Assembly (NCBI RefSeq): GCF_015841355.1
Contig: NZ_CP064908.1
Span: 3,038,001-3,102,000 of the forward strand
DNA: 64,000 bases
Source: Synechococcus sp. CBW1107
Lineage (GTDB): Bacteria > Cyanobacteriota > Cyanobacteriia > PCC-6307 > Cyanobiaceae
Reading direction: 5' to 3'
Part shown: in pieces, positions 11,958 through 60,601 of the stretch
Position numbering within the stretch: the first letter of the stretch is position 1
Layout: every line of letters begins with the position of its first letter
Notes under the pieces: model-generated
What the model was told of the DNA's origin: nothing
What the model saw: the letters and a program-made list of their open reading frames with translations, nothing else
The model's database searches: none
Program-made: the position numbers and the translations under genes

Positions 11958-12015
11958 GACAGCGCCTGAACCCACGAACGATTCATCCCAACACCCCCCA
12001 TCCAGGAGAACCCTG

Positions 12016-12450: not shown

Positions 12451-12451
12451 G

Positions 12452-13234: not shown

Positions 13235-13314
13235 TCCCAGCAGCCAGCGCTGCCCCGGCCAGCGCATTCCTGGCTGGGGGCTGGCAACAGCTCAGCAGCA
13301 CTGCCCTGGCGCCA

Positions 13315-13557: not shown

Positions 13558-13597
13558 TTTCTCCCCTCCACCTCTCTCCCCTTCTGCACTGATCGCC

Positions 13598-24800: not shown

Positions 24801-25302
24801 GAAGCCCCCAGTTGGCGTTGTCGTCGGCATTGAGGCATTCCTGCAGGCAGCTGTGGGGGGAGCGCCGGCGCCCTTCCTGACCGAACTGGCTGCTGCCCTT
24901 GTCGAGCTGATCGGCCGCGATGCCCCGCACGATCAGGGGCACGGCGCCCTCAAACGCCCGTTGGGTGATCGGGAAGTGGGCGTCGCCGTGTTGCCAGCCA
25001 ATGCAGGGCTGCAGGTCCGGCCAGCCCAGCACCTCGCGCAGGATGCGCACGGAGGTATGCAGGCCGCTAGCGCCTTGTGCCGCCCGCTCCCGCAGATCTC
25101 GGTATTCCTCCCAGATTTCCTTGAGCCGCACCCAGGCCGTGTCGATCCGTTCCCGCAGCCGCTCGCCTTTGGCCAGTCCGTAGTCGGCCTCCTTCTGCAG
25201 GGTGGCCTGCAGGCGGGCCACCTGCTCCAGCAGCGACCCCGGCAGCAGGCTGCCCTTGAGCTCGATCGCCTGGAAGCTGACGGTGGCGGTGGTGCGGGCC
25301 AT
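21844..25302 (-). CDS. drmMI: Eco57I/PglX-like N6-adenine DNA methyltransferase (DrmMI-like)
   Basis: 1,152 residues. SAM-binding motif I is VLDPACGSGHFLLAAARRL (about residue 500). Catalytic motif IV is FDCVLGNPPWGSEL (about 765), the N-P-P-W/Y signature of N6-adenine methylases. The long N-terminal helical part and a TaqI-like C-terminal recognition region match the large single-chain methylases of BREX (PglX) and class 1 DISARM (DrmMI). It would mark host DNA so that the system spares it. It starts 3 bases after the SNF2-like gene stop. The last 450 residues are somewhat AT-richer than the rest, which fits a swapped recognition domain. Confidence 0.75.
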   Translation of the reverse strand: MARTTATVSFQAIELKGSLLPGSLLEQVARLQATLQKEADYGLAKGERLRERIDTAWVRLKEIWEEYRDLRERAAQGASGLHTSVRILREVLGWPDLQPCIGWQHGDAHFPITQRAFEGAVPLIVRGIAADQLDKGSSQFGQEGRRRSPHSCLQECLNADDNANWGLLLTGDRLRLLHDNPSLVKPAYLAVDLELLVEGELFDEFAVLWLLLHASRFRHPQTGSCVLDAWKEQAQEAGERVLGQLRNGVQQALEALGNGLLQHPENEALRSQLASGALSGQELHRQLLRLVYRFLFLFTAEDRDLLFPRTLGQEDPRRRIYREGYSVGRLRELAIRRSASEGPYGDLWQTQKLVFLQLRQSSSPLGLPGLGGLFAEPQCQALEPCELANRFLLRAIRAIGWFQAGDTLTRVNYRDLNTEELGSVYEGLLELHPQLERAGGSWQLSYGGGAGSDRKTTGSYYTPDQLVQLLIVSALLPVIADRLSKATTEQEKEAALLEIRVLDPACGSGHFLLAAARRLALELARIRAGDEEPSEELRQECLREVVAHCIYGVDKNPMAVELCKVALWIEAVDPGKPLSFLDAHIQCGDSLVGVFDPKVLEQGIPDEAYKPLTGDDKPTCTSLKRENASFRKAGQKGTLQGTLNLQSSPTISRSQQRLKEIEAMPETTLAEGSAKQAAYEAWEQERSSDPQALAADLYTAAFFLPKTKDSRAKVPTTQHLLLLQSGQEIQGDLELAVEQATRDFRFFHWHLRFGEVMERGGFDCVLGNPPWGSELDFRTKNYLKSLQSFVDSSTPNAFAYFCGLTLGLQKISGRCGMVVPDSILFKDYSQLRSGLSTLVSRILWFQNSGAPSKLRLFPEVDHDFCILAWSGSPSLSADVNVSQIGPDGSFVVTERQLQKSFFIKKEFDFIYNISMTDSAQQIAIHVSSLSTLSDRFSCNEGIHTGNCRDLLFHEACVNDHCKPLFYGAGGGDKINNYCSQRAGWWVDYRKEIIDKSEGLYASLRDEAIFAGAKIYVTRTGNPFKAFYDNCSYASNNFFSIKLIRSGSVGEDTLLLGTLPFIISPFAQYFIRRIAAPRIGQAFIETKITHLMKLPIPQLSSQQVETLAELVRQVIDAKSKGMEESANELEMEIQAKALAAYQFNDAMLAEILQ

Positions 25303-25305
25303 GGC

Positions 25306-47074: not shown

Positions 47075-48073
47075 TCAACCGGGCTGATGACCAGCCTGGT
47101 GCTGCACTAAAAACGCCTCGATCCAGTCGTGGTGTCGCTTCTGCAGGATCCGATCAGCGATCGTCGTGGCCTCCTCAGGGATGGAGAAGCGCTTGCGGAA
47201 GCCCTGGGTGAGGGCCTCCAGCAGGGGGCGAGGGAGCTGGCGGATGGCGCCGTGCAGCGTGCGGATCGTGGCCGCATCGAGGGGGAGCAGCCCCGGATCC
47301 TGCTGGGCTGCAGGGACAGCAGCCTGAGCCGGGGGCTCTGCCGGTGTCGATGCCCTTGCCTGGTGCTGGGGAGCTGGCTGGCCCTGCCGCGGGTGAGCCA
47401 TTGGGCGTTCTGGTGCCGCTGAGCTGGTCACCTCCCGCTGGCGCTTGTCGTAGAGCGCCAGTCCAAACGGGTTCCCGAAGGTCATCAATGCCCGCTTCAT
47501 GGCATCGGTCTCGGCTTCCTTGAGGGCGGATTCATGGGCCTGGCCCAGGTCAACGTCGATGCCGTGGCCGGCGCCGCTGCCCTCCCGAACCAGGGGTGCC
47601 AGGCCTCCAGCGGTGACGGTGACGCGCACACGGGCGGTGTAGGTGACGCCCCAGCCCGACTTCTGATCTCGGCTCGTGCCTCTGGCACCGATCAAGCGTT
47701 CGGCCTGGGCGACGCAGCGGACGGCGATGGTCTGGCGCTGCCAGCCATCGAAACCAAAGATGCGGTTCGCTTCCGCGATCACCTGCCAGCCTTCGAGGTA
47801 GTGGACCTTCGATCGGCCCTGCTCCCGCTGGCGGACGTTGGCCCGATCGAGGGGGGCGGAAAGAGCGGCGAGCTGTTCGGGGGAGAAGCCGGCAGGCGGA
47901 GCCTGGGGGGCTTCCGGTGCCGAGGCTGTTGCAGGCTCTGGCGCTGGAGTCTCCACGGCGCGATCGACGGAGCGGATCAGCTCCAGGGCTGAGGGAGGCC
48001 TCTGGACAGGACGAGGAGCAGCGGGCCGGCTGGTGGTGCTGGCCCCGTTGGTGGAAGGAGCGGCGACGGTCAT
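47075..48073 (-). CDS. Rad52/22-like ssDNA-annealing protein
   Basis: 332 residues from ATG 48073. A low-complexity N-terminus (Pro/Ala/Ser, about 1-80) precedes a Rad52-like core: YLEGWQVIAEANRIFGFDGW, SGWGVTYTARVRVTVTAGG, GSGAGHGIDVDLGQAHESAL and KEAETDAMKRALMTFGNPFG. It would anneal single strands during phage recombination. A C-terminal helical module (GAIRQLPRPLLEALTQGFRK, then IADRILQKRH) is shared with the protein at 60598-61323. It belongs to the Gp157/SLOG gene set on the same strand. Confidence 0.8.
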   Translation of the reverse strand: MTVAAPSTNGASTTSRPAAPRPVQRPPSALELIRSVDRAVETPAPEPATASAPEAPQAPPAGFSPEQLAALSAPLDRANVRQREQGRSKVHYLEGWQVIAEANRIFGFDGWQRQTIAVRCVAQAERLIGARGTSRDQKSGWGVTYTARVRVTVTAGGLAPLVREGSGAGHGIDVDLGQAHESALKEAETDAMKRALMTFGNPFGLALYDKRQREVTSSAAPERPMAHPRQGQPAPQHQARASTPAEPPAQAAVPAAQQDPGLLPLDAATIRTLHGAIRQLPRPLLEALTQGFRKRFSIPEEATTIADRILQKRHHDWIEAFLVQHQAGHQPG

Positions 48074-48173
48074 GACGGTGGACGCAATGGTGTGAGGAGG
48101 AAGGAGAAGGGGCCCGGCTGCACCACCGGAACCCCACATGCCGGGGGCCTATGGCCCCTACGGCCTATGGCCG

Positions 48174-48794
48174 TCAGTGGATGCGCCAGGAGCGGCGGGA
48201 GATCAGCTGGGCGCCGGTGATCTGCTGGCCTGCCTTGAGAGCCGCCTTGATGGCGGTCTTGTCGGCCGAGAAGGTGGTTTTGACGCAGAGCCACTCGGGA
48301 TCGAGCAGGGCCTCGCTTTCGATCTCGACCGCCTGCGACTTGCGGCTGCTGAGCTCGTGGTTGGGGAACGAGAAGCGGGTGGCCGTGGGCTGCAGCCGCG
48401 TGAGGACCAGGACCAGGGAGTCCTCCAGGGCATCGGCCCGGCCGGCGTCGGAGCGGGCCAGCTCGGTGAGCCGCTTGGCCTGCTGCTGGCGGTAGGCGGC
48501 CTGGCCGCGCAGGTGCTCGATCACCCAGCAGGTGGCATCGGCCTTGGCCGCAAGGGCGGCCTTGTTGCCCTCTTCTGCAAGCAGGGCAGCCTCGAGCTCG
48601 CCGAGGGCCTGGGCGCGACTGTCGTCGTCATCGGTTTCCAGCTGCTCGGCGAGCTGGCCGATGGCGGTGGTGAGCTCCTGGGCCTCGATGCCCAGCTGCC
48701 AGAGCGAGCCGGAACGCTGCAGGGAGCAGGAAGGCCCGGCGGCCTGAGGGATAGCCGGGGTGAGAGGCGCGATGGGGGTGGTGAGAACGGACAT
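48174..48794 (-). CDS. siphovirus Gp157-like protein
   Basis: 206 residues from ATG 48794. The N-terminal helical coiled-coil region (AQELTTAIGQLAEQLETDDD..., CWVIEHLRGQAAYRQQQAKR) and the C-terminal block FSADKTAIKAALKAGQQITG are those of Gp157 proteins. They are associated with phage recombination proteins and linked to resistance in streptococcal phages. Its position between the SLOG and Rad52-like genes is consistent. Confidence 0.75.
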   Translation of the reverse strand: MSVLTTPIAPLTPAIPQAAGPSCSLQRSGSLWQLGIEAQELTTAIGQLAEQLETDDDDSRAQALGELEAALLAEEGNKAALAAKADATCWVIEHLRGQAAYRQQQAKRLTELARSDAGRADALEDSLVLVLTRLQPTATRFSFPNHELSSRKSQAVEIESEALLDPEWLCVKTTFSADKTAIKAALKAGQQITGAQLISRRSWRIH

Positions 48795-48847
48795 GGCTTG
48801 AACGTGCGAGAAGGAGGAGGACGAGAAGAACGGGGCAGCGGTGCGCC

Positions 48848-49369
48848 TCAGGCGCCGAGGGGCTCCGGCGAGAAGGGCGGCGGCACTTCCATCACCACCA
48901 CCGGCACCGGCGAACGGGAGGAGCAGCGGCGGGCCTGCTGCACCAGCGAGGCCGTGCCTGCCCCACCGGGAAAGGCGATCACCAGCACCGAGGCGCTGAA
49001 CGCCGGGCAGGTGTGGGCCTGGGCCTCCACCAGGGCCTGCTCCAGCAGGAGGCGATTGCGGATCGGCCCGGCAGCACGGCCATGACGGCGCCAATCAGCG
49101 GCGAGGGCTTGGACCCGCCAGCCGAGCTGCTGGGCGGCACGGCCGATGGAGCGATCTGCGCCACGGGCCCCGCCATGCAGCAGCAGATGGACAGGCCGGC
49201 CACCGCTGCGCTGGAGCAGGGCGGAGGCGATGCGCTCCTGGGGCCAGACGAGATCACGGCCACCAGCGGCGACGATGACGACCGAGCGATGCGCCAGCAC
49301 CGGCGGCGGCAGGAGATCAGGGAGAGGCAATGCAGCGGCCTGGGCCACTGCAGCAGAGGACAAGCTCAT
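48848..49369 (-). CDS. SLOG-family (YspA/DUF2493-like) protein
   Basis: 173 residues. A Rossmann-like SLOG fold: VVIVAAGGRDLVWPQERIAS, PVHLLLHGGARGADRSIGRA, a middle ADWRRHGRAAGPIRNRLLLE, and a C-terminal FPGGAGTASLVQQARR. The GxxGAD and PGGxGT motifs bind nucleotide-derived ligands. It occurs with phage recombination genes. Confidence 0.75.
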   Translation of the reverse strand: MSLSSAAVAQAAALPLPDLLPPPVLAHRSVVIVAAGGRDLVWPQERIASALLQRSGGRPVHLLLHGGARGADRSIGRAAQQLGWRVQALAADWRRHGRAAGPIRNRLLLEQALVEAQAHTCPAFSASVLVIAFPGGAGTASLVQQARRCSSRSPVPVVVMEVPPPFSPEPLGA

Positions 49370-49804
49370 GAGCTACAGAGCAAACGAACGGGGCAAGTTG
49401 TCCGAGGATTTTGTTGCCGCAGGCGATGGGCTCGTGGCCTTTGGCGCAGCTCTTATTCTACCAGTACAAACGCACTGAGCAGCGGGCAGAGCGGCTGCGG
49501 GGCAATGGATCTACGCAAAGCAAAGCCATGCGCTGATGGATCGGAAAGCTGATAAGCAGACCCGCCAGATTCAGACCTGGATGCCCAACCGGCCGCGCAG
49601 CCGCGCGAGGAAACTTGGGGCCTCGCCCCAACCCCTACCGGCTGGAAGCGGCTCCGCTACCGCAGCCGCGGGAGGACAGCCATGCCCGCCACCCCCACAC
49701 CGGCCCCGGAGCGGAGGGCGGCGGCGGCTGGCCGATGCACGCCACGGCGTAGCCGTGGCACGCTGAAGGACGGCCGCTGCCGACCGGCGCCCTGCGGCGG
49801 TTGC
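49370..49804. other. intergenic, no gene seen
   Basis: 435 bases. A 36-codon frame (ATG near 49369, MSYRANERGKLSEDF...) has no support. The sequence 49600-49750 is GC-rich with poor coding signal. Confidence 0.3.
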
Positions 49805-50224: not shown

Positions 50225-50390
50225 TCCTGAAGGCCGTGAGTCGATGGGGCTGCAGCTGAGCTTTCAGTCTGATGGCGAATGGGAGAGAGCCTCTCCCACC
50301 TCGGACAGGGAAGGCCATGCGGAGCGGACGAGAGAGGGAATCTCTCCCCAAATCTCTCCCATCCCCCTTGCTCGATCCTTAAAAAGTCAG
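50225..50390. terminator. T-run after the tRNA-like fragment (minus strand)
   Basis: On the minus strand the tRNA-like fragment (3' end at 50391) is followed within 10 bases by GACTTTTTAAGG (50376-50387), a tract of the kind found just after tRNA genes. The rest of the stretch is gene-free. Confidence 0.35.
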
Positions 50391-50434
50391 TCGGGGCGAC
50401 AGGATTCGAACCTGCGACCTAGTGCTCCCAAAGC
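50391..50434 (-). other. tRNA-Pro(TGG) 3' fragment, putative attachment site
   Basis: On the minus strand this reads from GCTTTGGGAGC (anticodon loop with TGG) through the variable region to a canonical T arm GCAGGTTCGAATCCTGT and acceptor end CGCCCCGA. The 5' half (D arm, 5' acceptor) is absent: upstream sequence has no tRNA character. A 3' tRNA segment beside an integrase gene is the usual trace left when an element integrates into a tRNA gene. The complete tRNA should lie at the other end of the element, outside this window. Confidence 0.75.
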
Positions 50435-50617: not shown

Positions 50618-51889
50618 GTGCCGAAGCCCACCACCGCCCCTCGACCAGCCCGACAAGCCAAGGACCGTGGCTGGGTCGCAGCCCTGCGCTTGTCGCTCAC
50701 GTCAGATCTGGGGCCTCGCAGTGGCTGGACGGTTTCGGAGATGCGTGGGCGGGTTTTGCTGAACGTTTCCGCGTCTGCCGCCGGTGGTGCTCGCCAGCAG
50801 CGGGTTTTGCCATTGGCCTGGGCTGCTTCGGAGCGGCAGACCATCCATGCAGCAGTTCTTGCCATCCATGCCGATTTCAGCGATGGCGTGCCCCTTGATT
50901 TAGCCATTGAAACGCACGCGCGAATCCCTTCAGAGGAGACAAGTCTCGTGGGGACTACGGTCAGCGAGGCTATTAATTGGCCGCAGCTGATACAAGCATT
51001 CAAGGAGCACAAGCTCAGTAGTGGAGCGATCAAGCAGAGCACTTGGGATGAAATCTACTGGCGGCGTATGGTCGTGATTCTGGATGCGGTTGGAGGCAAG
51101 CGACGACCCATCTCATCAAAGCAACTGCTGGAGAGCGTGATTGACTCTTGGAAGGACAGGTCTGGATCGCGTGGTCGTCAGCTACAGGTTCAATTCACAG
51201 CTGCTCTTTTGCGCTGGTGCGTCGATTCGGAACGTCTGCCGACATCCTGGGCACCGCCTCTTGATCTCTCTGTTTATGTTGGCCGCAAGCGTGATGAACG
51301 AGGGATTACAACACCCATTGATGTTAGCCATGTGCTCGGTTTGGTGGAGGCCATTCCTGATCCGCGTTGGCGATTGGCGTTTCAGCTGATTGCTGCCTAC
51401 GGCCTCCGGCCAGAGGAACTGCAGCACTTGGAGAGTCGGAAGGGGCAGCTCTGGACGACCTACCAGAAGGTTTCCAGTCGGGGCCGAACCCGATCCAGGA
51501 TGCTGCGACTGTTGCCCTGCGACGACTGGGCGCAGGCCTGGCAGCTCGAGAAAGCATTTCGACCCGAGCTCATGCCACCGATGCGGCCGGGCCATGGAGC
51601 TGAAGACCTTGGCACCTACATGCGTCGCCGGATTCTCTGGCAACAGCTCCGGCGGGAGTATGAGGAGCAAGGCGAGAAACTCGTGCTCTATTCCTGTAGG
51701 CACGGCTATGCCCACCGCGCTCACATCATCTGTGAATTGCCGCCCAAGGTGGTAGCTGCTGCCATGGGTCATTCCGTCGAGACCCACTTAGCGGCCTACA
51801 GCCGCTGGTGTGGGGACGAAGTGGTGGATGACGCGTTCGCCAAGGCAGCGCGCAGGCTGGAGACTGCGTCAGCCGTGAAGGTGGCCTAA
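50618..51889 (+). CDS. tyrosine-type site-specific recombinase (integrase)
   Basis: 423 residues from GTG 50618. The C-terminal catalytic domain shows the tetrad: Arg in AAYGLRPEELQHLE (about 263), His/Arg in YSCRHGYAHRAH (about 360), and GH plus the nucleophile Tyr in AAAMGHSVETHLAAYSRW (about 393). The N-terminal 200 residues are a DNA-binding domain without recognised markers. It begins about 180 bases from the tRNA-Pro fragment and points into the element. It would integrate and excise the element between att sites. Confidence 0.88.
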   Translation: MPKPTTAPRPARQAKDRGWVAALRLSLTSDLGPRSGWTVSEMRGRVLLNVSASAAGGARQQRVLPLAWAASERQTIHAAVLAIHADFSDGVPLDLAIETHARIPSEETSLVGTTVSEAINWPQLIQAFKEHKLSSGAIKQSTWDEIYWRRMVVILDAVGGKRRPISSKQLLESVIDSWKDRSGSRGRQLQVQFTAALLRWCVDSERLPTSWAPPLDLSVYVGRKRDERGITTPIDVSHVLGLVEAIPDPRWRLAFQLIAAYGLRPEELQHLESRKGQLWTTYQKVSSRGRTRSRMLRLLPCDDWAQAWQLEKAFRPELMPPMRPGHGAEDLGTYMRRRILWQQLRREYEEQGEKLVLYSCRHGYAHRAHIICELPPKVVAAAMGHSVETHLAAYSRWCGDEVVDDAFAKAARRLETASAVKVA

Positions 51890-52715
51890 TCTCCACCCCA
51901 GGGTCCGACCTGTCTCCTACCCATCGGCGGCAGCCTTGGCCGTCCTGATCCGTTATGGAAGAAATGGATGGGACCGAACTGTTCCGCGAGATGTTATTAG
52001 ACGGTTTTAGGTCTCATTTTGGTCTGACCCGCTGTTGGCGCACCGTTTACTGACCGAGACCGACGTGGGCATTCCTGAACACAAGAAGAAACCCACGGCC
52101 ACCGTGATGCCGGTGAAGGGATGGCGGTCTCAGTTCGCAACCGTAACGAAATGGCCCTCAACTACGTACCGTCAGGCGACTAGGAGGCGCTGATGAATCT
52201 CATGGAAGACCTGGAGTTGGGCCGCGTCGCCGATTCCCGGCTTGCGGATGGGCAGGAGCTGCTGCGGGTCAACATTTTAGCCCTCTGTGTTCGGCTTCCC
52301 TTTGCAGACCCTGGAGGGAGTAGTGAAAGCTGATCGCATAGATTCTATTATGAGGGTCAAATCATGGCCATGCCTGCATCGGATTGTTGGTCTCTCCCAG
52401 TGCTGACCTCATCCAGAAGGCAGCCGCAGCTTGCATCATCCGCCCATCGCAGCTGGCAAGTTGGCTGCAGTTCAGATAGATGGTGTTGCACCGGTCAAAG
52501 TGCAGTCTCACAGGATGCAGTTCACCGCCGCGGGCGAGGCCTTTGAGAGGACCAGGCATGCGAGGTGGCTCCTTCACGCCACACATTTTTGTCGGTGCTT
52601 TCCAACAGAATGGAGTCTGGGATGGCCATCCATGCCTCGGCGTAGTGTGTTCCTAACGACGGAACAACCGAGAGAACGTTCAAACCCAGCATCATGGCCA
52701 GCCTGCTCGTGCAAC
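51890..52715. other. intergenic with decayed sequence
   Basis: 826 bases between the integrase and the first RiPP-cluster gene. One 46-codon frame (52193-52333) has a strong RBS (AGGAGG, 52182-52187) but no recognisable product. Two short minus-strand frames at 52362-52719 look like pieces of a degraded gene. I see no complete gene. Confidence 0.4.
52193..52333 (+). CDS. short hypothetical frame with good RBS
   Basis: 46 residues beginning MNLMEDLELGRVADSRLADG, with AGGAGG six bases ahead of the ATG. It is too short to place in a family. It may be a small gene of the mobile element or chance. Confidence 0.25.
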   Translation: MNLMEDLELGRVADSRLADGQELLRVNILALCVRLPFADPGGSSES

Positions 52716-53303
52716 TCAAAGAGCAGCATCTGGATAGGCTTCAACGAACCATGTGATCACATACTTCGGGCCCGAGATTGGAGGGCACCCTCGGTGCACA
52801 TGAGTCCAGAACGGCGGGAATAGCAGGACGCGACCTTCGACAGCAGCAACGGCGTCAGCTCCCCTGAACTGGGTCTCGCCCCCCACCTCCACCGAGTTCA
52901 GATAGGCAATGCCAGCCAGCACCCGATTGTCCGGCGGTGTGCTGTCGACATGCCAATCAAAGCCGTGCGAGGCGTCCGTGTAGCACTGCAGGACGAACGC
53001 CGTGCGCTTGAGCAAGTAGTGCGATGTGAGCAAATTTAGGGGGAAGTGTCGATCGTCCAAGGCGATCTCATATGCGCGCTCTAGGCACGACTCAAGCGAC
53101 TGCACCGGTCCCATGACCGAGGCATTCTTGGAGGCCTCGATGTCCCAGTCAATTGAGCGCTTTATCGGGTGGACCCCAAACTCAGTCCTCCCAGAAATAC
53201 CCTCGCCAGAAACCAGAAATAAAGCAATGAGGCGCCGACACAGCTCCTGTGGCAGAGCCTCGTCGACGATGGCAATGCTACCCGGGAGGCGTTTGAGCTT
53301 CAT
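52716..53303 (-). CDS. 2-oxoglutarate/Fe(II) oxygenase of prolyl-4-hydroxylase type
   Basis: 195 residues. The facial triad is visible as H118-x-D120 (GFDWHVDST) and a distal His at 168 or 170 (FWTHVHRG); a basic residue K180 (GPKYVITWF) would hold 2-oxoglutarate. GGETQFRG between them is typical of P4H-like enzymes. Such enzymes hydroxylate peptides or small molecules. It is divergent from the precursor gene across only 51 bases that hold a -10-like TATAAT and a palindrome, so the two are probably co-regulated. It is a likely tailoring enzyme of the cluster. Confidence 0.75.
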   Translation of the reverse strand: MKLKRLPGSIAIVDEALPQELCRRLIALFLVSGEGISGRTEFGVHPIKRSIDWDIEASKNASVMGPVQSLESCLERAYEIALDDRHFPLNLLTSHYLLKRTAFVLQCYTDASHGFDWHVDSTPPDNRVLAGIAYLNSVEVGGETQFRGADAVAAVEGRVLLFPPFWTHVHRGCPPISGPKYVITWFVEAYPDAAL

Positions 53304-53318
53304 GGGCGGAAACTGTAA

Positions 53319-53324
53319 TATAAT
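53319..53324 (+). promoter_or_regulatory. -10-like TATAAT upstream of precursor gene
   Basis: A perfect consensus hexamer 30 bases ahead of the precursor ATG (53355). Read on the other strand the same AT block gives TATATT (complement of 53317-53322), suitable for the divergent oxygenase. No good -35 hexamer is spaced correctly, so activator help is possible. Confidence 0.5.
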
Positions 53325-53329
53325 GCCTG

Positions 53330-53339
53330 TGTCCGGACA
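53330..53339. promoter_or_regulatory. palindrome TGTCCGGACA in divergent promoter
   Basis: A perfect 10-bp palindrome just downstream of the -10-like box and upstream of the RBS GGAAG (53345-53349). It lies between the two divergent genes and could be a repressor operator for both. No regulator gene lies in the cluster. Confidence 0.4.
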
Positions 53340-53354
53340 ACGCTGGAAGCTTTT

Positions 53355-54014
53355 ATGAAGCCTGATGAAGTTGCCAACCTGTTAAACCGCCTGGCAATGA
53401 GCTTGGCCCAAGGAGAGCTCGATCAGAATGCCCTCGATTCACTCGCCGATGTCGCCAGAATCGACGAGCTCATATGCACCATGTCCGAAGCAGATCGGCT
53501 TCGCTGGATGGTCTTCCGCTCGTTGGCAGCCGGGTCCTCCGATGGGGACAGACTAGGCGGCAACATCGCTGTCATCTTGAAGAACTGGGGGCGCCAGCAC
53601 CTGGCGGAGGCCGAGGAGGACCCTGGCGTGGCCGTCGTGATGAAGAACTGGGGGCGCCAGCTGCCCGCGGGACCCGACAAGGACCCTGACGCGGCCGTCG
53701 TGATGAAGAACTGGGGGCGCCAGCTGCCCGCGGGACCCGACAAGGAGCCTGACGTGGCCGTCGTGATGAAGAACTGGGGGCGCCAGCTGCCCGTGGGACC
53801 CGACGAGGACCTGGCGGACATCGACACCCAGGTGGTGATGAAGAACTGGGGCAGGCAAGACCTGGCCGAGCCTGGCTCGTCGTCTGTGGTGGTCATGAAG
53901 AACTGGGGGCGCCAGCATCTCGCCGATGACGATGGAGAGCCCTCTGATATGACCGTTGTTATGAAAAACTGGGGCAGGCAAGATCTCGCTTCTTCAGACG
54001 AAGGAGAGACCTGA
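53355..54014 (+). CDS. RiPP precursor with seven KNWGRQ core repeats
   Basis: 219 residues. Residues 1-70 form a helical leader (VANLLNRLAMSLAQGELDQN, then SLADVARIDELI) with no cysteine-rich or glycine-rich part. Then come seven copies of [VI][VIL][ML]KNWGRQ, with the lysine at residues 76, 97, 118, 139, 163, 182 and 204. Acidic, Pro/Gly/Asp-rich spacers of 13-18 residues separate them, as expected of cleavable linkers. Copies 5 and 7 use different codons from 2-4 for the same peptide, so the motif is under selection. Its stop overlaps the radical SAM start by one base (TGATG) and AAGGAGAG lies just ahead. The core W-G-R fits the aromatic-x-x pattern used for radical cyclophane formation. 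Modification is inferred. Confidence 0.85.
   Translation: MKPDEVANLLNRLAMSLAQGELDQNALDSLADVARIDELICTMSEADRLRWMVFRSLAAGSSDGDRLGGNIAVILKNWGRQHLAEAEEDPGVAVVMKNWGRQLPAGPDKDPDAAVVMKNWGRQLPAGPDKEPDVAVVMKNWGRQLPVGPDEDLADIDTQVVMKNWGRQDLAEPGSSSVVVMKNWGRQHLADDDGEPSDMTVVMKNWGRQDLASSDEGET
53580..53981 (+). repeat. in-frame peptide repeats of the precursor
   Basis: Seven coding repeats with unit spacing 63, 63, 63, 72, 57 and 66 bases. Units 2-4 are nearly identical in DNA (GAAGAACTGGGGGCGCCAG); units 5 and 7 share a variant (AACTGGGGCAGGCAAG). The array is coding, not a CRISPR. Confidence 0.9.
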
Positions 54015-55108
54015 TGCTCTCGCTCACCGCTCCGATATCCATCGATATAAACCTGACAAATATCTGCAATCTCAAATGCTCCTTTTGTTCAGCAACGCCC
54101 TTCAGTCACTCCAAGCAGACTAGCGAACTCACTCTCGATGAGCTCTCTCAACTCTTCGACCAGATCGACGAGATGGGTGTGTTCTTGGTACGTCTAGCTG
54201 GTGGTGAGCCGCTCGCCCGTCCCGATTTCCGTCAGATTCTGCATATGGTCTCACTACACGACTTTGAGTCGATCATTCTCACAAATGGGGTGCTCCTTAC
54301 ACCCCACTTATCCCACGAGATCAAGGCAAGCGGGGTGAACTCCGTCGCTATCAGCGTCGACGGCCCTAATGCCGACATACACGACAAGAGTCGGGGGGTG
54401 CCTGGTTCATGGGCCAAGTTGATGACCAACCTCGAAGGGCTGCGCGCCGCGGGTCTTCCCTACACCGCCATGTTGACGGTGACGGCAACCACGTGCCCCC
54501 ATGTGGTGGAGACAGTCCGGATCCTGGACACGCTGGGGTTCAACAGCGTGAACCTCATCCTCCTCAACTTCTCAGGACGTGCCCGGGAAGGTGGCGAATT
54601 CCCAAGCTGGGAAGCATGGGAACACGCATTTCTCGAGCTCACCTCTTACATCGAAGCGGGCAAGATCGGGCTGAAGGTATCGGTACTGCCGCCTCACGAA
54701 GACCCCGCTCCCTACGAGATGGTCGCCCCCCTCACTGCCGCCGGCCGACTGGATGCGCTCCATTCCGTCTGGGGTATCCCACCCCAGGCTCTGCAAGGCG
54801 ATGGAGATCTCGGCTGCGCGGCCGGCCGCACCCAGATGACCGTGTTCGAGAACGGCGACGTCTTTGGTTGCGAGCTGATGCGAGATTTTGCGCTCCTGCG
54901 TGCGGGAAGCGTTCGCCAGTCCAGCCTTGCCGAGATATGGGAGAGCAGTCAGGTCTTTCAAGAGCTAAGAGGTCTCCGAAAGGTCGATCTCGAAGGCAGC
55001 TGCAGCAGCTGTCCCATCACCGTATGCGGTGGTGGCTGCCGCGCATCAGCAGCAAATCGAACACGATCCATACGCGGATCCGACACCAACTGCCACCTTC
55101 ACCGATGA
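54014..55108 (+). CDS. radical SAM/SPASM peptide-modifying enzyme
   Basis: 364 residues. The radical SAM cluster is C18-x3-C22-x2-C25 (NICNLKCSFC), followed by GGEPLARPDF and SIILTNGVLL. The C-terminal SPASM domain carries the auxiliary clusters: C in GDLGCAAGR, C in DVFGCELM, then the block SCSSCPITVCGGGC and a last Cys near TNCHLHR. SPASM enzymes install carbon-carbon or thioether bonds in precursor peptides (for example streptide, triceptide, sactipeptide maturases). With no cysteine in the repeats, a Trp- or Lys-centred carbon-carbon link is the likely product. It is translationally coupled to the precursor upstream and the 76-residue gene downstream. Confidence 0.9.
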   Translation: MLSLTAPISIDINLTNICNLKCSFCSATPFSHSKQTSELTLDELSQLFDQIDEMGVFLVRLAGGEPLARPDFRQILHMVSLHDFESIILTNGVLLTPHLSHEIKASGVNSVAISVDGPNADIHDKSRGVPGSWAKLMTNLEGLRAAGLPYTAMLTVTATTCPHVVETVRILDTLGFNSVNLILLNFSGRAREGGEFPSWEAWEHAFLELTSYIEAGKIGLKVSVLPPHEDPAPYEMVAPLTAAGRLDALHSVWGIPPQALQGDGDLGCAAGRTQMTVFENGDVFGCELMRDFALLRAGSVRQSSLAEIWESSQVFQELRGLRKVDLEGSCSSCPITVCGGGCRASAANRTRSIRGSDTNCHLHR

Positions 55109-55335
55109 GCCGATTCATCAAGCTGCGTTTGGGCAAAGAAACCTTGTATCTGCGACCCGAAGGACCTAATCGCTACCTGGCCTACCGGGGGCTGAATGGC
55201 ACTGCAGTGATCGCCGATGGCCGGCTTTTGCTCGCACTCGCCTCCAAGATTGAGGCTGAGCAGGATCCATCCTCAGAAGTCATCTACTGGCCGTACGCTC
55301 AGGAACGGCTACGGGCACTCGGACTGAAGATGTGA
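55105..55335 (+). CDS. 76-residue coupled protein of unknown function
   Basis: ATG 55105 overlaps the radical SAM stop (ATGA) and its own stop (55333-55335) overlaps the GTG start of the GNAT gene. 76 residues: a beta-rich N-terminus (RFIKLRLGKETLYLRPEG and YLAYRGLNGTAVIADG) and a C-terminal helix with YAQERLRALGLKM. I see no peptide-recognition (RRE) signature, but the size and position suggest a partner of the radical SAM enzyme. It is easily missed because a longer frame shadows it. Confidence 0.6.
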   Translation: MSRFIKLRLGKETLYLRPEGPNRYLAYRGLNGTAVIADGRLLLALASKIEAEQDPSSEVIYWPYAQERLRALGLKM

Positions 55336-56057
55336 TTAGCCGCTGCACTATCACTGAGGTATCCTCACTAATTGGCCGCACTCCGGCAGAAGTGTTCCCA
55401 AGATACCTGCTAGAACAACAACCGACGGGTTTGGTGGACGTCGTAATGCAGGGCGACAAGGCCATCGCAGTCAGGCTGTCTCCTCGGGAACTGAGAGTGG
55501 AGTTCGTACCGGACTGCTGGATCGTCGGCACCGACCAAGCTGCCATGAGAGACCTCCACGCCTTCGGCTTGGGCGAGCCCACTTCGTTTCCTGAGTCCTT
55601 TGAGCACTCCAGAAGCGACGGAGGAGGCTGGTCTTGGGACCTCCACCTGTCACGCGCTGGTGATCGCGGGACCATCAACAGAGAGGTGGAGCCTCTCGAC
55701 ATAACCCGCATAGCCCAGCTTGAGGTGCCGGAAGACGTCGCTGTGACCATTGGTCCAGCGTCCGAGCTCCCCCCACGCCTCTTCGGGCTGGTTCGCAACG
55801 GGGAGCTCCTCGGAGTAGTCGACGCCATAGTGCAGCTCCCCGATGTTTGCGCCCTTCAGCAGCTGTTCGTCACGGAGTTCGCTCGAGGTAAGGGGCTCGC
55901 TGTCATGTTGGTCCGGGCTGTGGCCGACCACATGGCCCGGCAAGGTCGAGTCTCTACCTACCTCGTGGAGGCACAGAACAAGGCCTCAGCCGCGGTCGCG
56001 CGACGCGCCGGGTTCACGCTGATGGAGCGTCGGCGCTTGTGGACCCCCAGCGTTTGA
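55332..56057 (+). CDS. GNAT acetyltransferase of the RiPP cluster
   Basis: 241 residues from GTG 55332. The first 120 residues are unrecognised. The C-terminal half is a GNAT fold: GELLGVVDAIVQLPD..., LQQLFVTEFARGKGLAVMLV (acetyl-CoA loop R-G-K-G-x-A) and AAVARRAGFTLMERRRLW. It would acetylate an amine, possibly a lysine of the core or N-terminus. Its 3' end overlaps the convergent MBL-fold gene by 44 bases. Confidence 0.75.
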   Translation: MISRCTITEVSSLIGRTPAEVFPRYLLEQQPTGLVDVVMQGDKAIAVRLSPRELRVEFVPDCWIVGTDQAAMRDLHAFGLGEPTSFPESFEHSRSDGGGWSWDLHLSRAGDRGTINREVEPLDITRIAQLEVPEDVAVTIGPASELPPRLFGLVRNGELLGVVDAIVQLPDVCALQQLFVTEFARGKGLAVMLVRAVADHMARQGRVSTYLVEAQNKASAAVARRAGFTLMERRRLWTPSV

Positions 56058-57417
56058 CCTCGCGATCGACATGTCTTTGGAGCAGCGGCTCATGCGGGAA
56101 GAAGTGCCACAGCGGATCCCCTAGCACCTCGGGATTCGGCAGGGCAGCTTGGCCCTCCTCGAACGACATGACGGTCTGGAGCACTCGGTACTCGCCGCCG
56201 AGAATGACCGCGCCCCACGTAGTCTGGCCATCCACCAGCCGCTTCAGCGCGCCGGCCTCGATATCCGTCGTGTAGGTCGCGCGTGGTTCGCGGCCGCGTT
56301 CCACCGTTATCTTGGAACTTCCAAAATCGGCGTGAAAGAACATTGTGCCGCCCTGCAGGTGGATGCGGAGCTGGTAGACAACCCCCCACTCGAGCATTGG
56401 CAGCAGGGTAGAGGCGGCGCGATGTTGCAGGAACTCCTGGAAGGGCCCTTGCAACAGTTCACGGATCCAAGACTCGTCGGATTCATCATCTGGAGGATCC
56501 CCTGCTCTCAAGATGCGATCGACCTGGTTGGGCATGAAGTCCAAACGACTCCGATCGTCCACCTTCATCCGAACCCAGTTGGCCTCCTGACGCTCCACAA
56601 CATGGGTGCCGTTCGCGCCCATGGTTATGGAATCTCCCGGAAACAACGGGTGGACCTTGCCAGCAAGGTGGGGCATGAGCGTCGACACATCCGCCACAAA
56701 GCGCTCGTGGGTCACGGGGAAAACCACCCGGTTCAAGTGCTCGGCAGGTGCCAGGTATCTAAACCCACAGCTTGCGGGCACAATTGCGGAGGGATCGACC
56801 TTTCGTGCCACAGAGAGCAGCCGCGCGTACTCCTCCGCAGGAAAAGAGATGGACCGGTTCCAGAGGTACGCCGACTCCAGCATCGGCTGCCAGCCGCACA
56901 TCAACAGGTCGACGCCACCAGCCCAGGCCCGAGCCTGTTTGACTGTCTCCATGCTGACGATGGTGTCCACTTGGTTCCACAACGTCCCCTCGGGCCCGGC
57001 AACAAGGATCCCGAACTCCGGGACAGGACACTTGGACGGGGTCATCAATAGCGTCAGAGGACCGATGGGGACCGTGCTCCAATCGTGCACCGGTTCAAGA
57101 TCCTCGAAGCCCAGCTGCTCCAGCGCGGATATAATAAGAGGGTCTTCTGGGCATATTACAAGAAGATCTCTTGGCAGCACAGCCAACGAGTGCACATCGA
57201 AGTGGTCTAGGTGTCGGTGCGAGATAACGATGGCGTCAAGAGCGGGCAACGCAGAGGTATCCACCTCTCTAGAAGGGCAAATCGCGAACAAGCCCTCTTG
57301 ATGCGGATCGAACAAGACTGGATCCATCAAGATCCGCTTACCACAAGACTCCACGACAACGGTCGCGTGCCCCACCATGGTGATTTTAATGCTTCCGCCT
57401 CCACTCTCTTTATACAT
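56014..57417 (-). CDS. metallo-beta-lactamase-fold hydrolase with SCP2-like tail
   Basis: 467 residues. The N-terminal fold has IKITMVGHATVVVES and the metal motif SHRHLDHFD (H67, H69, D71, H72), with later histidines. The C-terminal 140 residues (TMFFHADFGSSKITVERG ... ATYTTDIEAGALKRLV) resemble SCP2-like domains found in alkylsulfatase-type enzymes. A start at 57417 is used because the family begins with IKI..GHA; an internal ATG at 57378 would cut that strand. It could act as peptidase, hydrolase or oxygenase in the pathway. Confidence 0.65.
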   Translation of the reverse strand: MYKESGGGSIKITMVGHATVVVESCGKRILMDPVLFDPHQEGLFAICPSREVDTSALPALDAIVISHRHLDHFDVHSLAVLPRDLLVICPEDPLIISALEQLGFEDLEPVHDWSTVPIGPLTLLMTPSKCPVPEFGILVAGPEGTLWNQVDTIVSMETVKQARAWAGGVDLLMCGWQPMLESAYLWNRSISFPAEEYARLLSVARKVDPSAIVPASCGFRYLAPAEHLNRVVFPVTHERFVADVSTLMPHLAGKVHPLFPGDSITMGANGTHVVERQEANWVRMKVDDRSRLDFMPNQVDRILRAGDPPDDESDESWIRELLQGPFQEFLQHRAASTLLPMLEWGVVYQLRIHLQGGTMFFHADFGSSKITVERGREPRATYTTDIEAGALKRLVDGQTTWGAVILGGEYRVLQTVMSFEEGQAALPNPEVLGDPLWHFFPHEPLLQRHVDREVKRWGSTSADAPSA

Positions 57418-57919
57418 TCAGCGGCCAACGGTAGACGAAAAGGTTCTGGCAAGTCTACAATCTTTTATAGCAGCCATCGAGCCCCCAGCTGGCGAACGAA
57501 TGACGCACCAGGGGTTGCACCTCGAGAATGAGGCATCACTCCAGTGGCTCAAGCGAGAGTTCGAGGACTTTGCCACCCGAGCAAGGGGCATACCTTGCGA
57601 AGTATTCCGGATGTGGGCGGTCACCAGCATGACAGCAGACCCACGCTCGCCGACATCGCCTATGTGGCACCAACATTTGTGCGCTTGCTCAGCCGTGTTC
57701 GTGGTATCGGGCCCCGACGCGCCGGTGGGAGGTGAGGGATCCTTCGGCTTTTTGGCTCCAGAGCCCGTCCGCATTCTTGCCGAACCAGGTCTGATGGTCC
57801 TGTTCGATCACAACCTTGTCCATGACGGAATTCCTCTGCAGACGTACAGCGGACGGCGCACCGTTGTCGCTGCCGACATGCGCCATCGCCCTACAGACAG
57901 GGCATCGCCACACAGCTGA
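57377..57919 (+). CDS. double-stranded beta-helix oxygenase-like protein
   Basis: 180 residues from ATG 57377. It shows a cupin/2-oxoglutarate oxygenase-like layout: MWHQHL (H98, H100), EGSFGFLAPEPVRILAEPG, FDHNLVHDGIPL (H149) and SGRRTVVAADMRHR. The H-x-H start differs from the classical H-x-D. It overlaps the divergent MBL gene 5' end by 41 bases, so one of the two starts may be shorter. A second oxygenase beside a precursor fits an oxidative tailoring pathway. Confidence 0.55.
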   Translation: MVILMLPPPLSLYIQRPTVDEKVLASLQSFIAAIEPPAGERMTHQGLHLENEASLQWLKREFEDFATRARGIPCEVFRMWAVTSMTADPRSPTSPMWHQHLCACSAVFVVSGPDAPVGGEGSFGFLAPEPVRILAEPGLMVLFDHNLVHDGIPLQTYSGRRTVVAADMRHRPTDRASPHS

Positions 57920-58214
57920 CCACGTGGGCCAGTTGGTTCTCCGGCGTGAGCCGCTCCCACACACTGAACCAAGTCACCCCCAACACATCCCCGCAAGGTG
58001 CGCGAATGAAAAGGCGGTCCCCGGCTTCGTCTATGTGGCACAACAGCTTCATGGGCGGCTCAAGATCGCTACAGCTAAGGAGAAAGGTGGTGGGGCCCTG
58101 CTGAACGATCTCCACCTTCAGAACACTTCTCTGGATCACGATGGAGTGCACCGCCGACCGCTGGTCCGCTCCTTGGAATCTGCACTGCACCTTCCTGTGC
58201 CGCTCGTTGTCCAT
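57891..58214 (-). CDS. hypothetical protein at RiPP cluster edge
   Basis: 107 residues from ATG 58214 with AAGGTG just ahead. It has a beta-rich core (SIVIQRSVLKVEIVQQGPTT, LLCHIDEAGDRLFIRAPCGD) and ends FSVWERLTPENQLAHVV. It is convergent with the previous gene, overlapping by 29 bases. No family recognised. It could belong to the cluster or to the flank. Confidence 0.45.
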   Translation of the reverse strand: MDNERHRKVQCRFQGADQRSAVHSIVIQRSVLKVEIVQQGPTTFLLSCSDLEPPMKLLCHIDEAGDRLFIRAPCGDVLGVTWFSVWERLTPENQLAHVVSCVAMPCL

Positions 58215-58467
58215 TTACACACCTTAATCAGCAACTGTAACGCTACCTACACGATGCTTCCAACGGAGTAACTTCTCGCAGGCCGGCGGGACGAAAGCAA
58301 TAGGCCGTAACCAGCACTGCCAGGGTGTTGCCCCAACGGCGAAGTGCCTACTGGAAGTGCCTGCCTGCATTCTGGAACGTTTCTAGGGTTTGGACCGTGT
58401 CAGGAACCAACCTGGACCTTACACGAAAATTTTATACACAACTCTGCCTCCATCCGACTTGAAGCAA

Positions 58468-58713
58468 TCACCTCTGCAGATGTCTCCTGCTCCAGCCGGT
58501 GATGGTAGCCTCCGCGTTCTCTAAGTGCCACTGGAGCGGCCCCCGGCCCTGGGTGCAGCCCCAGCGGCGGTAGTGCTTGCCCGGGGTGAGCACCCCCCGC
58601 AGCCGCAGCTGGCGGAGGGTCTCGCGGCTCATGCCCAGCGCTGTGCAGGCTTCTGCTGTCGTCACCCAGACCCGGTGCCGCCCAGATGGGGGTGGCGTCG
58701 TCGGGTTGTCCAT
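58468..58713 (-). CDS. small helix-turn-helix DNA-binding protein
   Basis: 81 residues from ATG 58713, overlapping the antirepressor stop (ATGA). It contains a MerR/excisionase-like HTH (VTTAEACTALGMSRETLRQ followed by LRLRGVLTPGKHY) and an aromatic wing. It may be the excisionase or a repressor of the element. Confidence 0.65.
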   Translation of the reverse strand: MDNPTTPPPSGRHRVWVTTAEACTALGMSRETLRQLRLRGVLTPGKHYRRWGCTQGRGPLQWHLENAEATITGWSRRHLQR

Positions 58714-59483
58714 CAGGCCAGCTCCCGGAGCACGCTGACCACGGCGGGATTCCAGAGGATCTGGTACCCGCTGTGGCCATGCCGGCAGTAGGGCATGGCT
58801 TCGGCCCATTCCTGCCCCCGTTGCGTCAGCTCCCACTCGTCACGGGCATTACGGCTCTGCAAACCGCATGCCGCCAGATGCTGGTTCATCACCCGGGCCG
58901 ACATGCCCACCTTCCGACCCAGCTGAGTGGCATTCAGCGAACAGATGGGCTCATCGGCAGCCGGCAAGGCACGGCGCAGGGTCTCAACTGCCAGGCCGGT
59001 GTTTTCCTGGATGCAGTTGAGGGTGGCAGCCATAGCGATCCCGGCCTTCACGCCGGGCAGCCGGGCAATGGCTTGACCGATCAGCAGAAGAGCGCCGACG
59101 CTGTCCTGCTTCTCTGAGGGCAAAGCTGCCGGAGTGGGGACGGTACCAGTCACGCTGTAGGTCCCGGCCCGACGGATTGTCGGCAGCACCTCGTGAGTGA
59201 CCCAGCGCTTGAAGCTGTGCGCCTCCTTCTTGCGGCTGCCCAGTACCAGGTTGTACATCCCTGGCTCATTCACGATCGTCATGACCTGCTCGCCACCAGG
59301 GGTGTGAATTGAACTCACACCCTTCTCGTCGTCATCAAGCCGCTCCAAGGCCTTGCGGTCGAGGGCGAGCGAGGCGAGAAGATCGGCAGCAACAAACCAA
59401 GGATCACCCAGTTCATCGCTGATGACCCGGATCTGGCGGCCCTCATACTCAAAGGGCACGAGGGAAGACGTGTTGTTGTTCAT
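58713..59483 (-). CDS. phage antirepressor (BRO-N with KilAC-like tail)
   Basis: 256 residues. The N-terminal BRO domain is VPFEYEGRQIRVISDELGDP, WFVAADLLASLAL, ...NEPGMYNLVLGSRK, HSFKRWVTHEVLPTIRRAG. The C-terminal part (RKVGMSARVMNQHLAACGL, WELTQRGQEWAEAM) is KilAC-like and binds DNA. It inactivates a phage repressor. It is in the packed minus-strand block with 4-nt overlaps on both sides. Confidence 0.85.
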   Translation of the reverse strand: MNNNTSSLVPFEYEGRQIRVISDELGDPWFVAADLLASLALDRKALERLDDDEKGVSSIHTPGGEQVMTIVNEPGMYNLVLGSRKKEAHSFKRWVTHEVLPTIRRAGTYSVTGTVPTPAALPSEKQDSVGALLLIGQAIARLPGVKAGIAMAATLNCIQENTGLAVETLRRALPAADEPICSLNATQLGRKVGMSARVMNQHLAACGLQSRNARDEWELTQRGQEWAEAMPYCRHGHSGYQILWNPAVVSVLRELA

Positions 59484-59779
59484 CGGTCTGAAATCGGTGA
59501 GGAGGTGACAGGCCCGTTGAGGGCGGAGCTGGGATCGGGGTTGGGATCGAAGCAGGAGAGGCTGGTGACGGTGGCCGGCGCCAACCGCGGTGGCACGGGC
59601 CCAGTGATCACCAGCAGCAGGGTGCTGAGCTGAAACAGCAACCCCAGCAAGACCAGCAGGCGCAAGTTGGCGATGCTGCTGGCCGTGACCATGACGACCG
59701 GCCGGCGGCTCCGGCAGAAGGCAGGCAACTTGGGACGGGGCCCGGTGGCCCCATTGCTACGAACGTGTGGCGAGGCCAT
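59480..59779 (-). CDS. small membrane protein
   Basis: 99 residues with one membrane segment (IANLRLLVLLGLLFQLSTLL, about 36-55). The start overlaps the upstream stop and its stop overlaps the antirepressor start. Charge before the segment suggests the N-terminus is in the cytoplasm. Function unknown. Confidence 0.55.
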   Translation of the reverse strand: MASPHVRSNGATGPRPKLPAFCRSRRPVVMVTASSIANLRLLVLLGLLFQLSTLLLVITGPVPPRLAPATVTSLSCFDPNPDPSSALNGPVTSSPISDR

Positions 59780-60372
59780 CAGAAGGGGGCCTCGTCGTCG
59801 TCATCAACAGCCCACCCCGTACTGCTTCCGGTCTCCGCGGCACTACCCGTCGTGTATCCATCGAGCTCATCGAAGCCGTCGGTGGGGTCGACCTGCTCGT
59901 AGGGCACGAACTCCACGACCTGAACGGCACGCGGCTGGAAGGTCATCCCGCAGCCGTTTTCCCCGTCCCAGTCGTAGATGTCGAAGGCGACGATGACCTT
60001 CGAGCCGTTGCCAATGGCGGCACCATCCCAGGGTTGCTTCCTGGCATCAACGATTCGCGGCCCCTCGGATAGAGATCCATCGCGCCGCTGGAACTGCGGA
60101 ATCTTGAAGCGCAGCACGGTGAGCTCGTTGGGCTTCTCCTTATCCGCCTTCCAGGGGAAGCCCTTCTCTGCCCGGCGCTTGCGGCTGCCGTGTAGAGCGA
60201 TGAACTGGTCCTCCATCGCCAGTAGGAAGGATTGGGCCTTCTCGTCGTTGTTGGGGAGTAGCAGATCGGCCGTCCAGGCTTTGGGTTTGCTCTTGTCGAG
60301 TTGGTGCCTGGGGGTGATCAAGTGGGCCCAGCGCACTTCGGCGAGGGGGCTGCGAAAAATGTCCTTAGCCAT
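59779..60372 (-). CDS. DUF2815-type phage ssDNA-binding protein
   Basis: 197 residues from ATG 60372. It begins MAKDIFRSPLAEVRWAHLIT and has TADLLLPNNDEKAQSFLLAM, ENGCGMTFQPRAVQVVEFVP, and an acidic C-terminal tail (DDDDEAPF), the pattern of phage ssDNA-binding proteins (Enc34-type/DUF2815). It protects and presents single-stranded DNA during replication. The acidic tail should recruit partner proteins. Confidence 0.75.
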   Translation of the reverse strand: MAKDIFRSPLAEVRWAHLITPRHQLDKSKPKAWTADLLLPNNDEKAQSFLLAMEDQFIALHGSRKRRAEKGFPWKADKEKPNELTVLRFKIPQFQRRDGSLSEGPRIVDARKQPWDGAAIGNGSKVIVAFDIYDWDGENGCGMTFQPRAVQVVEFVPYEQVDPTDGFDELDGYTTGSAAETGSSTGWAVDDDDEAPF

Positions 60373-60601
60373 GGGTTGAATCGGGGTGAACGGTGGAAAT
60401 GGGCTGTTGATCGAACGGGGGAAGGGGCGGCAAACCAAATCGCTCACGCAGCAGGTGGTGCACCGCTCCGCTGGCCGAGAGGTTGTGGCGCTCCATCACC
60501 TCGCGGACCCGGAGGTAGACGTCAGTGCGCACCTGGGTCTGGATGAAGTGGCGGCCGGCCACTGAGCGGGGCTGCTCGCCATATCGGCGCCGGCTGCTCA
60601 T
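60365..60601 (-). CDS. small putative ribbon-helix-helix protein
   Basis: 78 residues. A RHH-like part IQTQVRTDVYLRVREVMERH and LSASGAVHHLLRERFGL follows a basic N-terminus. It overlaps the ssDNA-binding gene by 8 and the next gene by 4 bases. Probably DNA-binding. Confidence 0.5.
   Translation of the reverse strand: MSSRRRYGEQPRSVAGRHFIQTQVRTDVYLRVREVMERHNLSASGAVHHLLRERFGLPPLPPFDQQPISTVHPDSTHG

Follow-up and report, generated by a model that had tools for sequence, protein, structure and literature searches.

Introduction

The closest described relatives of the locus reported here are the tryglysin (WGK) peptides of Streptococcus, which form one of the 16 subfamilies in a streptococcal review (PMC13361665). 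In S. mutans, the precursor WgkA consists of 21 residues, and the operon runs in the order wgkA-wgkB-wgkC, of which the last gene encodes an RRE (PMC8092268). The core of tryglysin B is VNCWGKH, whose Cys is replaced by Ser in S. ferus, and the reaction of WgkB is a four-electron oxidation (PMC8092268). This enzyme generates the bonds Trp C5–Lys Cα and Trp C6–Lys Cδ in its product, and a link between Arg Cδ and Tyr is made in the RRR class (PMC8326336). XncB joins Trp C6 to Arg Cβ, and the TvgA/TvgB cluster of Halomonas combines a TVGG repeat precursor with a radical SAM (rSAM) enzyme and an alpha-ketoglutarate enzyme to place cyclopropyl groups on Val (PMC11002830). Biosynthetic (bacteriocin) clusters were reported in up to 3% of prophages (PMC7616364, citing Dragos 2021).

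Here we describe a locus of Synechococcus sp. CBW1107 located in a window of 64,000 nucleotides, which is the whole stretch of DNA that was analysed. A first-pass annotation of its letters had proposed a candidate new RiPP family. Its multi-core RiPP precursor with an own SPASM enzyme is well supported by the present analysis, but the pair is better placed next to the WGK class, as a variant with W-G-R and several cores. In our best reading, the RiPP candidate is real and clearly delimited, and it is kin to known peptides and not of an entirely new type. That annotation did not include the GNAT gene coupled to the operon, the oxygenase, the setting as prophage cargo, the block VVMKNWGRQ, and the Gly-Gly of the leader. 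All features are listed in Table 1.

Results

Precursor ORF and Its Seven Cores

The translation of the candidate precursor opens with MKPDEV, and its leader measures 75 residues where about 70 had been annotated. Exact KNWGRQ hexapeptides follow at residues 76, 97, 118, 139, 163, 182, and 204 with a core-to-core spacing of 19–24 residues, which bears out the seven cores with acidic Pro/Gly-rich linkers claimed at first. The degenerate 18-mer encoding KNWGRQ matched 7 times in the window, against a mean of 0 in 100 shuffles. Around each core the conserved block is VVMKNWGRQ, which reads VILKNWGRQ in copy 1. The sole Cys is residue 41 in the leader, and the repeats are free of it, again as annotated. 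A single Gly-Gly was located by eye in the leader (residues 68–69) shortly before core 1; it could be a putative leader cleavage site. The linkers between the cores contain no recurrent double-Gly or double-basic cleavage site.

The six core codons of the seven copies exhibited silent differences only (AAG/AAA, GGG/GGC, CGC/AGG, CAG/CAA), although 45 of the 54 possible single-base changes would be replacements. Copies 5 and 7, for example, are coded GGC AGG CAA against GGG CGC CAG for an identical peptide. When the nine-codon block was considered, 189 pairwise comparisons gave 59 silent and 12 replacement codon differences, counts that are not independent of one another as the copies are related by duplication, and all of the replacements came from copy 1. 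The silent-only variation of the core points to selection on the peptide. The codon-position G+C of the precursor (0.68/0.42/0.78) fits a plus-strand gene. This measure is indecisive on the strand, however, because one of the two minus-strand ORFs over the same DNA (142 aa) likewise looks gene-like (0.85/0.41/0.70). The plus strand is favoured because of the silent-only core variation and the overlap with the start of the rSAM gene.

No Pfam or NCBIfam family, Nif11 and NHLP included, matched the leader at E 1 or better, in agreement with the statement that it is of neither type. The whole precursor gave matches to AmcA (NCBIfam, E 0.007), Uma2 (Pfam, 3e-4), and DUF3105 (Pfam, 0.03) at E ≤1, which lie mainly in the repeats; they were rejected as precursor families, since all of them are below cut-off.

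Table 1. Positions of the phage element, its cassette, and the seven cores in the window.
Feature	Position	Strand	Remark
Probable left att site	50389..50434	.	46-bp exact copy of tRNA-Pro(TGG) 3' part
Tyrosine integrase of element (PHROG 1)	50618..51889	+	
Cassette (6.6 kb)	51838..58473	.	missing from phage contig L090, ~450-470 bp there instead
2OG-Fe(II) oxygenase	52716..53303	-	PF13640, E 1.6e-9; divergent, 51 bp from precursor start
RiPP precursor (candidate)	53355..54014	+	219 aa; leader 1-75, then seven VVMKNWGRQ cores, acidic Pro/Gly linkers
Core 1 KNWGRQ	53580..53597	+	degenerate 18-mer pattern match
Core 2 KNWGRQ	53643..53660	+	degenerate 18-mer pattern match
Core 3 KNWGRQ	53706..53723	+	degenerate 18-mer pattern match
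Core 4 KNWGRQ	53769..53786	+	degenerate 18-mer pattern match
Core 5 KNWGRQ, differently coded	53841..53858	+	degenerate 18-mer pattern match
Core 6 KNWGRQ	53898..53915	+	degenerate 18-mer pattern match
Core 7 KNWGRQ, differently coded	53964..53981	+	degenerate 18-mer pattern match
Radical SAM/SPASM enzyme, 364 aa	54014..55108	+	WgkB = closest characterised relative
76-aa ORF	55105..55335	+	4-nt ATGA overlap with rSAM gene (55105-55108)
GNAT N-acetyltransferase, C-terminal FR47/Acetyltransf_1 domain	55332..56057	+	4-nt GTGA overlap with 76-aa ORF (55332-55335)
Metallo-beta-lactamase-fold (MBL) hydrolase, 467 aa	56014..57417	-	convergent with GNAT gene, 44-nt tail overlap
Putative protein, 180 aa	57377..57919	+	no family match; C-terminal half 2OG-oxygenase-like by eye only
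HTH_17 protein, right edge of cargo slot	58468..58836	-	
Phage anti-repressor	58713..59483	-	
Phage ssDNA-binding/annealing protein	59779..60447	-	

Radical SAM Enzyme and Its Kinship to WgkB

The rSAM protein possesses a CX3CX2C motif at residues 18–25 and seven more cysteines (268, 286, 330, 333, 338, 342, and 360) in its SPASM part, a domain recognized by Pfam at E 1.3e-10. Its best NCBIfam model is WgkB (NF050035), which scored 266.6 bits (E 3e-79) over residues 5–363 of 364, followed by AhbD with 159 bits. This score is well below the curated cut-off of 650 bits, so that the enzyme is a distant relative of WgkB and not an ortholog. As a yardstick, three unrelated SPASM enzymes picked by similarity were scored with the same model, which gave 143–146 bits, 120 bits less than the present protein. 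WgkB was likewise the top family for the Streptomyces member of the three, and its model loosely matches 12 of 14 control genomes, none of them above the cut-off; the rank as top family hence proves little by itself. The kinship argument rests on the 120-bit gap and the colinearity with WgkB. When the own genome was searched with the WgkB model, only this locus appeared at E 1e-10 or better.

Two triceptide maturase families were tested, XyeB and GrrM, and the protein falls into neither: the GrrM model (TIGR04261) gave 32.3 bits against a cut-off of 310, and the XyeB model (TIGR04496) did not match at the locus. Of the 107 families matched, the 25 shown include no model of a streptide enzyme. 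The same genome has a separate GrrM (L110, genome positions 1983015–1984103) of 584 bits against the cut-off of 310, which belongs to a triceptide-type system with Gly-rich repeats.

Operon and Neighbouring Genes

The ATG of the rSAM gene starts on the A of the precursor TGA (54012–54014), one base being common to both, just as the first-pass annotation had it; an AAGGAG-like site was seen by eye upstream of this start. The precursor, rSAM, 76-aa ORF, and GNAT genes look like one translationally coupled four-gene operon because they overlap by 1, 4, and 4 nt. A perfect TATAAT was noted by eye at 53319–53324. The promoter scan gave no site there and 2 sites in the region against 1.2 expected.

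The 76-aa ORF stands where wgkC (RRE) sits in the wgk operon. Neither Pfam nor NCBIfam gave a match for it at E ≤1, no RRE homology was detected, and it has no convincing similarity to the small ORFs of the Streptomyces and Deinococcus clusters described below. A single-sequence model of this protein was of low confidence (pLDDT 57). The two oxygenase-like ORFs (52716..53303 and 57377..57919) were compared and share no real similarity. Relatives of the 2OG oxygenase were absent from 243 other genomes at E 1e-15. A search of 243 other genomes of the phylum gave relatives of the MBL gene in five; four were fetched, and none lies beside another cassette gene, which leaves the part of the hydrolase in the pathway uncertain. 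The cassette ORFs scanned include neither a protease nor a transporter, and no Rgg regulator was seen in the scanned ORFs of the 50.6–59.5 kb stretch. PADLOC assigned six cassette proteins to no defence family beyond generic radical SAM (viperin) and 2OG similarity.

Integrated Phage Element and Its Cargo Slot

The G+C content drops from approximately 0.68–0.70 (47–50 kb) to 0.58–0.62 (50–58 kb) on entering this region. An intact tRNA-Pro(TGG) gene that contains the 46-bp att copy is located 70.5 kb further on, beyond the window. Endonuclease and helicase genes also lie right of the cassette. Ten chosen ORFs were scanned on the same contig past the window end, which gave a primase, a terminase large subunit, a portal, a scaffold, a major head protein, and a tail-fibre-like gene. 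Since an integrase, phage genes, and tRNA-Pro att copies are all present, the cassette lies approximately 1.4–8.1 kb from the edge of an integrated element that carries many core phage genes. The right half of this element contains type I R-M genes as well as another recombination module, so that the element may be composite. Two copies of a Rad52-like + Gp157 module were found, one to the left of either tRNA-Pro att copy (window 47096–49804 and genome 3151991–3154574; 71–75% DNA identity), suggesting tandem related elements.

The IMG/VR contig L090 exhibits 88–95% DNA identity on both sides of the cassette, the att copy included. We examined 15 distinct related sources in the stretches fetched, namely 13 viral contigs and 2 sister genomes. 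Eleven of them contain both the integrase and the HTH gene, and the other four lack one flank in the stretch fetched. The gap between the protein matches of these two genes was 450–3323 bp in the eleven, as compared with approximately 6.6 kb here. Matches to cassette genes were obtained in 0 of 15 at E 1e-4; the cassette is thus missing from each of the 11 relatives, phages or prophages, in which the two flanks are present, which marks it as phage cargo (a moron). The sister genomes G001 and G003 have the integrase with none of the other queried genes nearby. A further 17 contigs, found via a distant anti-repressor, contain no cassette genes. As judged from these comparisons, the RiPP operon and the adjoining oxygenase and hydrolase genes behave as one cargo unit, which is delimited by the absence of the 6.6-kb cassette from L090.

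In this phage family, the integrase-HTH gap is a cargo hotspot of differing contents, as seen in L090, L091, L113, L115, L116, L117, L118, L126, L131, L083, and L085. A similar short ORF is common to the slots of L090 and L117, and likewise to those of L116 and L131. A GDSL-like lipase (G007) and a toxin-antitoxin-like DUF5615/DUF433 pair (G002) occupy the slot elsewhere, and PIN-like or secreted-looking ORFs were seen by eye in others. The slot of L091 (IMGVR_UViG_3300044613_005025; 11164–14261) holds a low-G+C dynamin-like GTPase with a weak LeoBC match and a second GTPase, and this pair is a possible defence cargo.

Search for Homologues Elsewhere

No close relative of the rSAM enzyme was found in the viral contigs or in the genome contigs. 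The sole match in the latter, L004, was rejected as an AhbD-like heme enzyme. Among 60 genomes including its own, three matched at E 1e-20, of which the own match is full-length and the other two cover only about 150 N-terminal residues; among 386 genomes of the phylum, again including its own, only the own match appeared at E 1e-30. The search of plasmids gave 67 matching records, the best being 31.5% identical (Streptomyces), and that of phage records gave nine with identities of 24.6–31.4%. Two of the 67 plasmid matches (Streptomyces H1 and Deinococcus H14) were fetched, and inspection of their plus-strand ORF lists by eye revealed no WGR/WGK precursor. The Deinococcus radiodurans plasmid CP1 (L010:4989–11107) carries, one after another, a SPASM enzyme gene, a small ORF, another radical SAM gene, and genes for a carbamoyltransferase and a TldD/PmbA family protein; this array looks like an uncharacterised peptide pathway.

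Relatives of the precursor were found neither in plasmids nor in viral contigs. One of 59 other relatives of the genome gave a match (G017, E 3e-4), which was rejected as chance: the ORFs of that region, some of them glycosyltransferase-like, contain no WGR or KNW. A pattern of three W-G-(basic-like) motifs matched 124 of 386 genomes and is hence too loose. Ten of these genomes were re-examined; five contain WGN-rich GrrA-like repeats (by eye), and the rest are chance or simple repeats. No W-G-R multi-core precursor was found in the titles and abstract openings that literature searches listed, a scope that does not establish its absence from print.

Other Features of the Window

Three very large genes that adjoin on the minus strand (21844–33851) match defence models, as a DruE-like helicase (1849 aa), a DpdE-like helicase (999 aa, 656 bits), and a DrmMI/type IIG-like methyltransferase (1152 aa). 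Together they form a mixed Dpd/DISARM/Druantia-like defence set. An ATPase and its small partner (18516–20356, minus strand) match the candidate defence pair HEC-03B/HEC-03A of PADLOC. A second major capsid protein (GP7-like; 11019–11957, plus strand) is encoded approximately 39 kb left of the element, and another phage remnant is probably present there. Three ORFs at 361–4986 (minus strand) have identical first residues, and the two that were scanned are Mutator-family transposases; these ORFs appear to be repeated insertion elements.

Discussion

The anatomy of the precursor, the gene overlaps, the kinship of the enzyme, and the position as phage cargo are evident from the DNA sequence. We consider it fairly probable that the locus is an operon, borne as cargo by a prophage, whose product is a multi-core radical-SAM RiPP akin to the WGK (tryglysin) class, with Trp-Arg cross-links. 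A route of leader binding, cross-linking, tailoring, release, and competition is what we infer. The WgkB-like SPASM enzyme would bind the precursor via its leader, possibly with the help of the 76-aa protein, and oxidatively join Trp to Arg in every W-G-R motif, seven in all. We slightly prefer a double C–C link of the WgkB type (−4 Da per core) to a single bond. The bond type of W-G-R cannot be told from the sequence, and the mass change would differ (4 vs 2 Da per core), so that the loss of 2 Da per core predicted at first may instead be 4 Da by analogy with WgkB. A Trp-Arg analogue of the WgkB product seems chemically reasonable because Arg has the same Cα–Cδ chain and the RRR class makes an Arg Cδ–Tyr link. 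No description of such a bicycle with two C–C bonds was found in the parts of the literature on related enzymes that were consulted. Tailoring with acetyl and hydroxyl groups would probably fall to the GNAT, whose gene is translated along with the precursor, and to the divergent 2OG oxygenase; the GNAT may alternatively give self-protection. Host proteases would then cut out one and the same small cyclic peptide, up to seven times per precursor, and the lysogen could turn it on neighbours or competing phages. It is a more tentative thought that the phage thereby arms its host with a seven-for-one RiPP, in which a WgkB-like enzyme switched from Lys to Arg would form a Trp-Arg bicycle per core and yield an acetylated or hydroxylated weapon against cells or phages. 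Against the WGK-type reading, our searches gave no second cluster in which such a precursor and enzyme are again paired.

The same W-G-R could instead acquire a single C–C bond between the Trp ring and Arg Cβ (−2 Da per core), the locus then being a triceptide evolved apart from the known triceptide enzyme families. Multi-core triceptide precursors exist, the own genome encodes a GrrM elsewhere, and the five genomes with GrrA-like repeats all belong to the same family. The motif also agrees: W-x-R fits aromatic-X-X, and XncB sets the precedent for the Trp C6–Arg Cβ bond (PMC11002830), so this part of the annotated triceptide fit is retained. It is the enzyme that does not comply, as it lies outside GrrM and XyeB and is described far better by the WgkB model; we thus regard the single bond as possible although unlikely. 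A streptide-like Lys-Trp link inside K-N-W had also been suggested, and W-G-R would then serve as a mere recognition motif. K, N, and W are indeed as invariant as G and R across the seven copies, and WgkB too joins Lys and Trp. However, the spacing is K-N-W and not K-x3-W, Lys precedes Trp here whereas it follows Trp in WGK, and the streptide enzyme model is missing from the families shown for the rSAM protein, making such a link very improbable.

The remaining alternatives concern the fate of the product and its existence. The repeat protein may stay uncut and act in its entirety, with its seven cross-linked loops, as a single intracellular or surface protein, a view that accords with the lack of a protease or exporter among the scanned cassette ORFs and with linkers devoid of a recurrent cleavage site. 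Transporters or host proteases may be encoded elsewhere, however, and the Gly-Gly seen by eye precedes core 1. Identical cores are typical of released units, and we consider an uncut product rather unlikely. It is even more doubtful, to the point of being improbable, that there is no RiPP and that the repeat protein has nothing to do with the radical SAM enzyme beside it. Such a chance pairing would agree with the failure to find a homologous cluster that would confirm it, but the start and stop codons overlap, and W-G-basic repeats adjoin an enzyme akin to a W-G-K maturase.

If the WGK-related reading is true, WGK-type maturases would no longer be confined to one short streptococcal peptide but include an enzyme that iterates over seven cores with an Arg partner, which would offer a useful test of how such enzymes choose one or two bonds. 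A radical SAM RiPP would then join the cargo by which temperate phages alter host fitness, here in a probable picocyanobacterium. The silent-only core variation, together with the near-empty site in a close phage, makes the substrate and the transfer unit unusually clear-cut.

Comparison with Known Systems

The nearest system is that of the tryglysin/WGK RaS-RiPPs (wgkABCD, Streptococcus), whose class trait is a tetrahydrobenzindole double C–C link. Our locus resembles it in a SPASM enzyme of about the same length that is colinear with WgkB, in a W-G-basic core, and in the order precursor-rSAM-further ORF. It differs in having W-G-R in place of W-G-K, and a 219-aa seven-core precursor in place of the single-core WgkA, which is about ten times shorter at 21 aa. 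There is furthermore no Rgg among the scanned ORFs, the small ORF is not recognisable as an RRE, the maturase scores under the family cut-off, and the cluster is prophage cargo. The likeness to triceptides (XncB, OscB/GrrM, MscB) lies in the aromatic-X-X motif, present as W-G-R seven times, and XncB accepts Trp-x-Arg (PMC11002830), whereas the rSAM enzyme is outside the XyeB and GrrM families. Streptide (KxxxW) is set apart by its K-x3-W, for which K-N-W stands here. The TvgA/TvgB cluster likewise unites a repeat precursor with an rSAM and a 2OG-type enzyme, though with another repeat and chemistry, TVGG and cyclopropyl groups on Val (PMC11002830). Finally, the locus shares with prophage-carried bacteriocin clusters the feature that biosynthetic genes are borne as phage cargo, and it is distinguished from them by its WgkB-like, multi-core radical SAM type.
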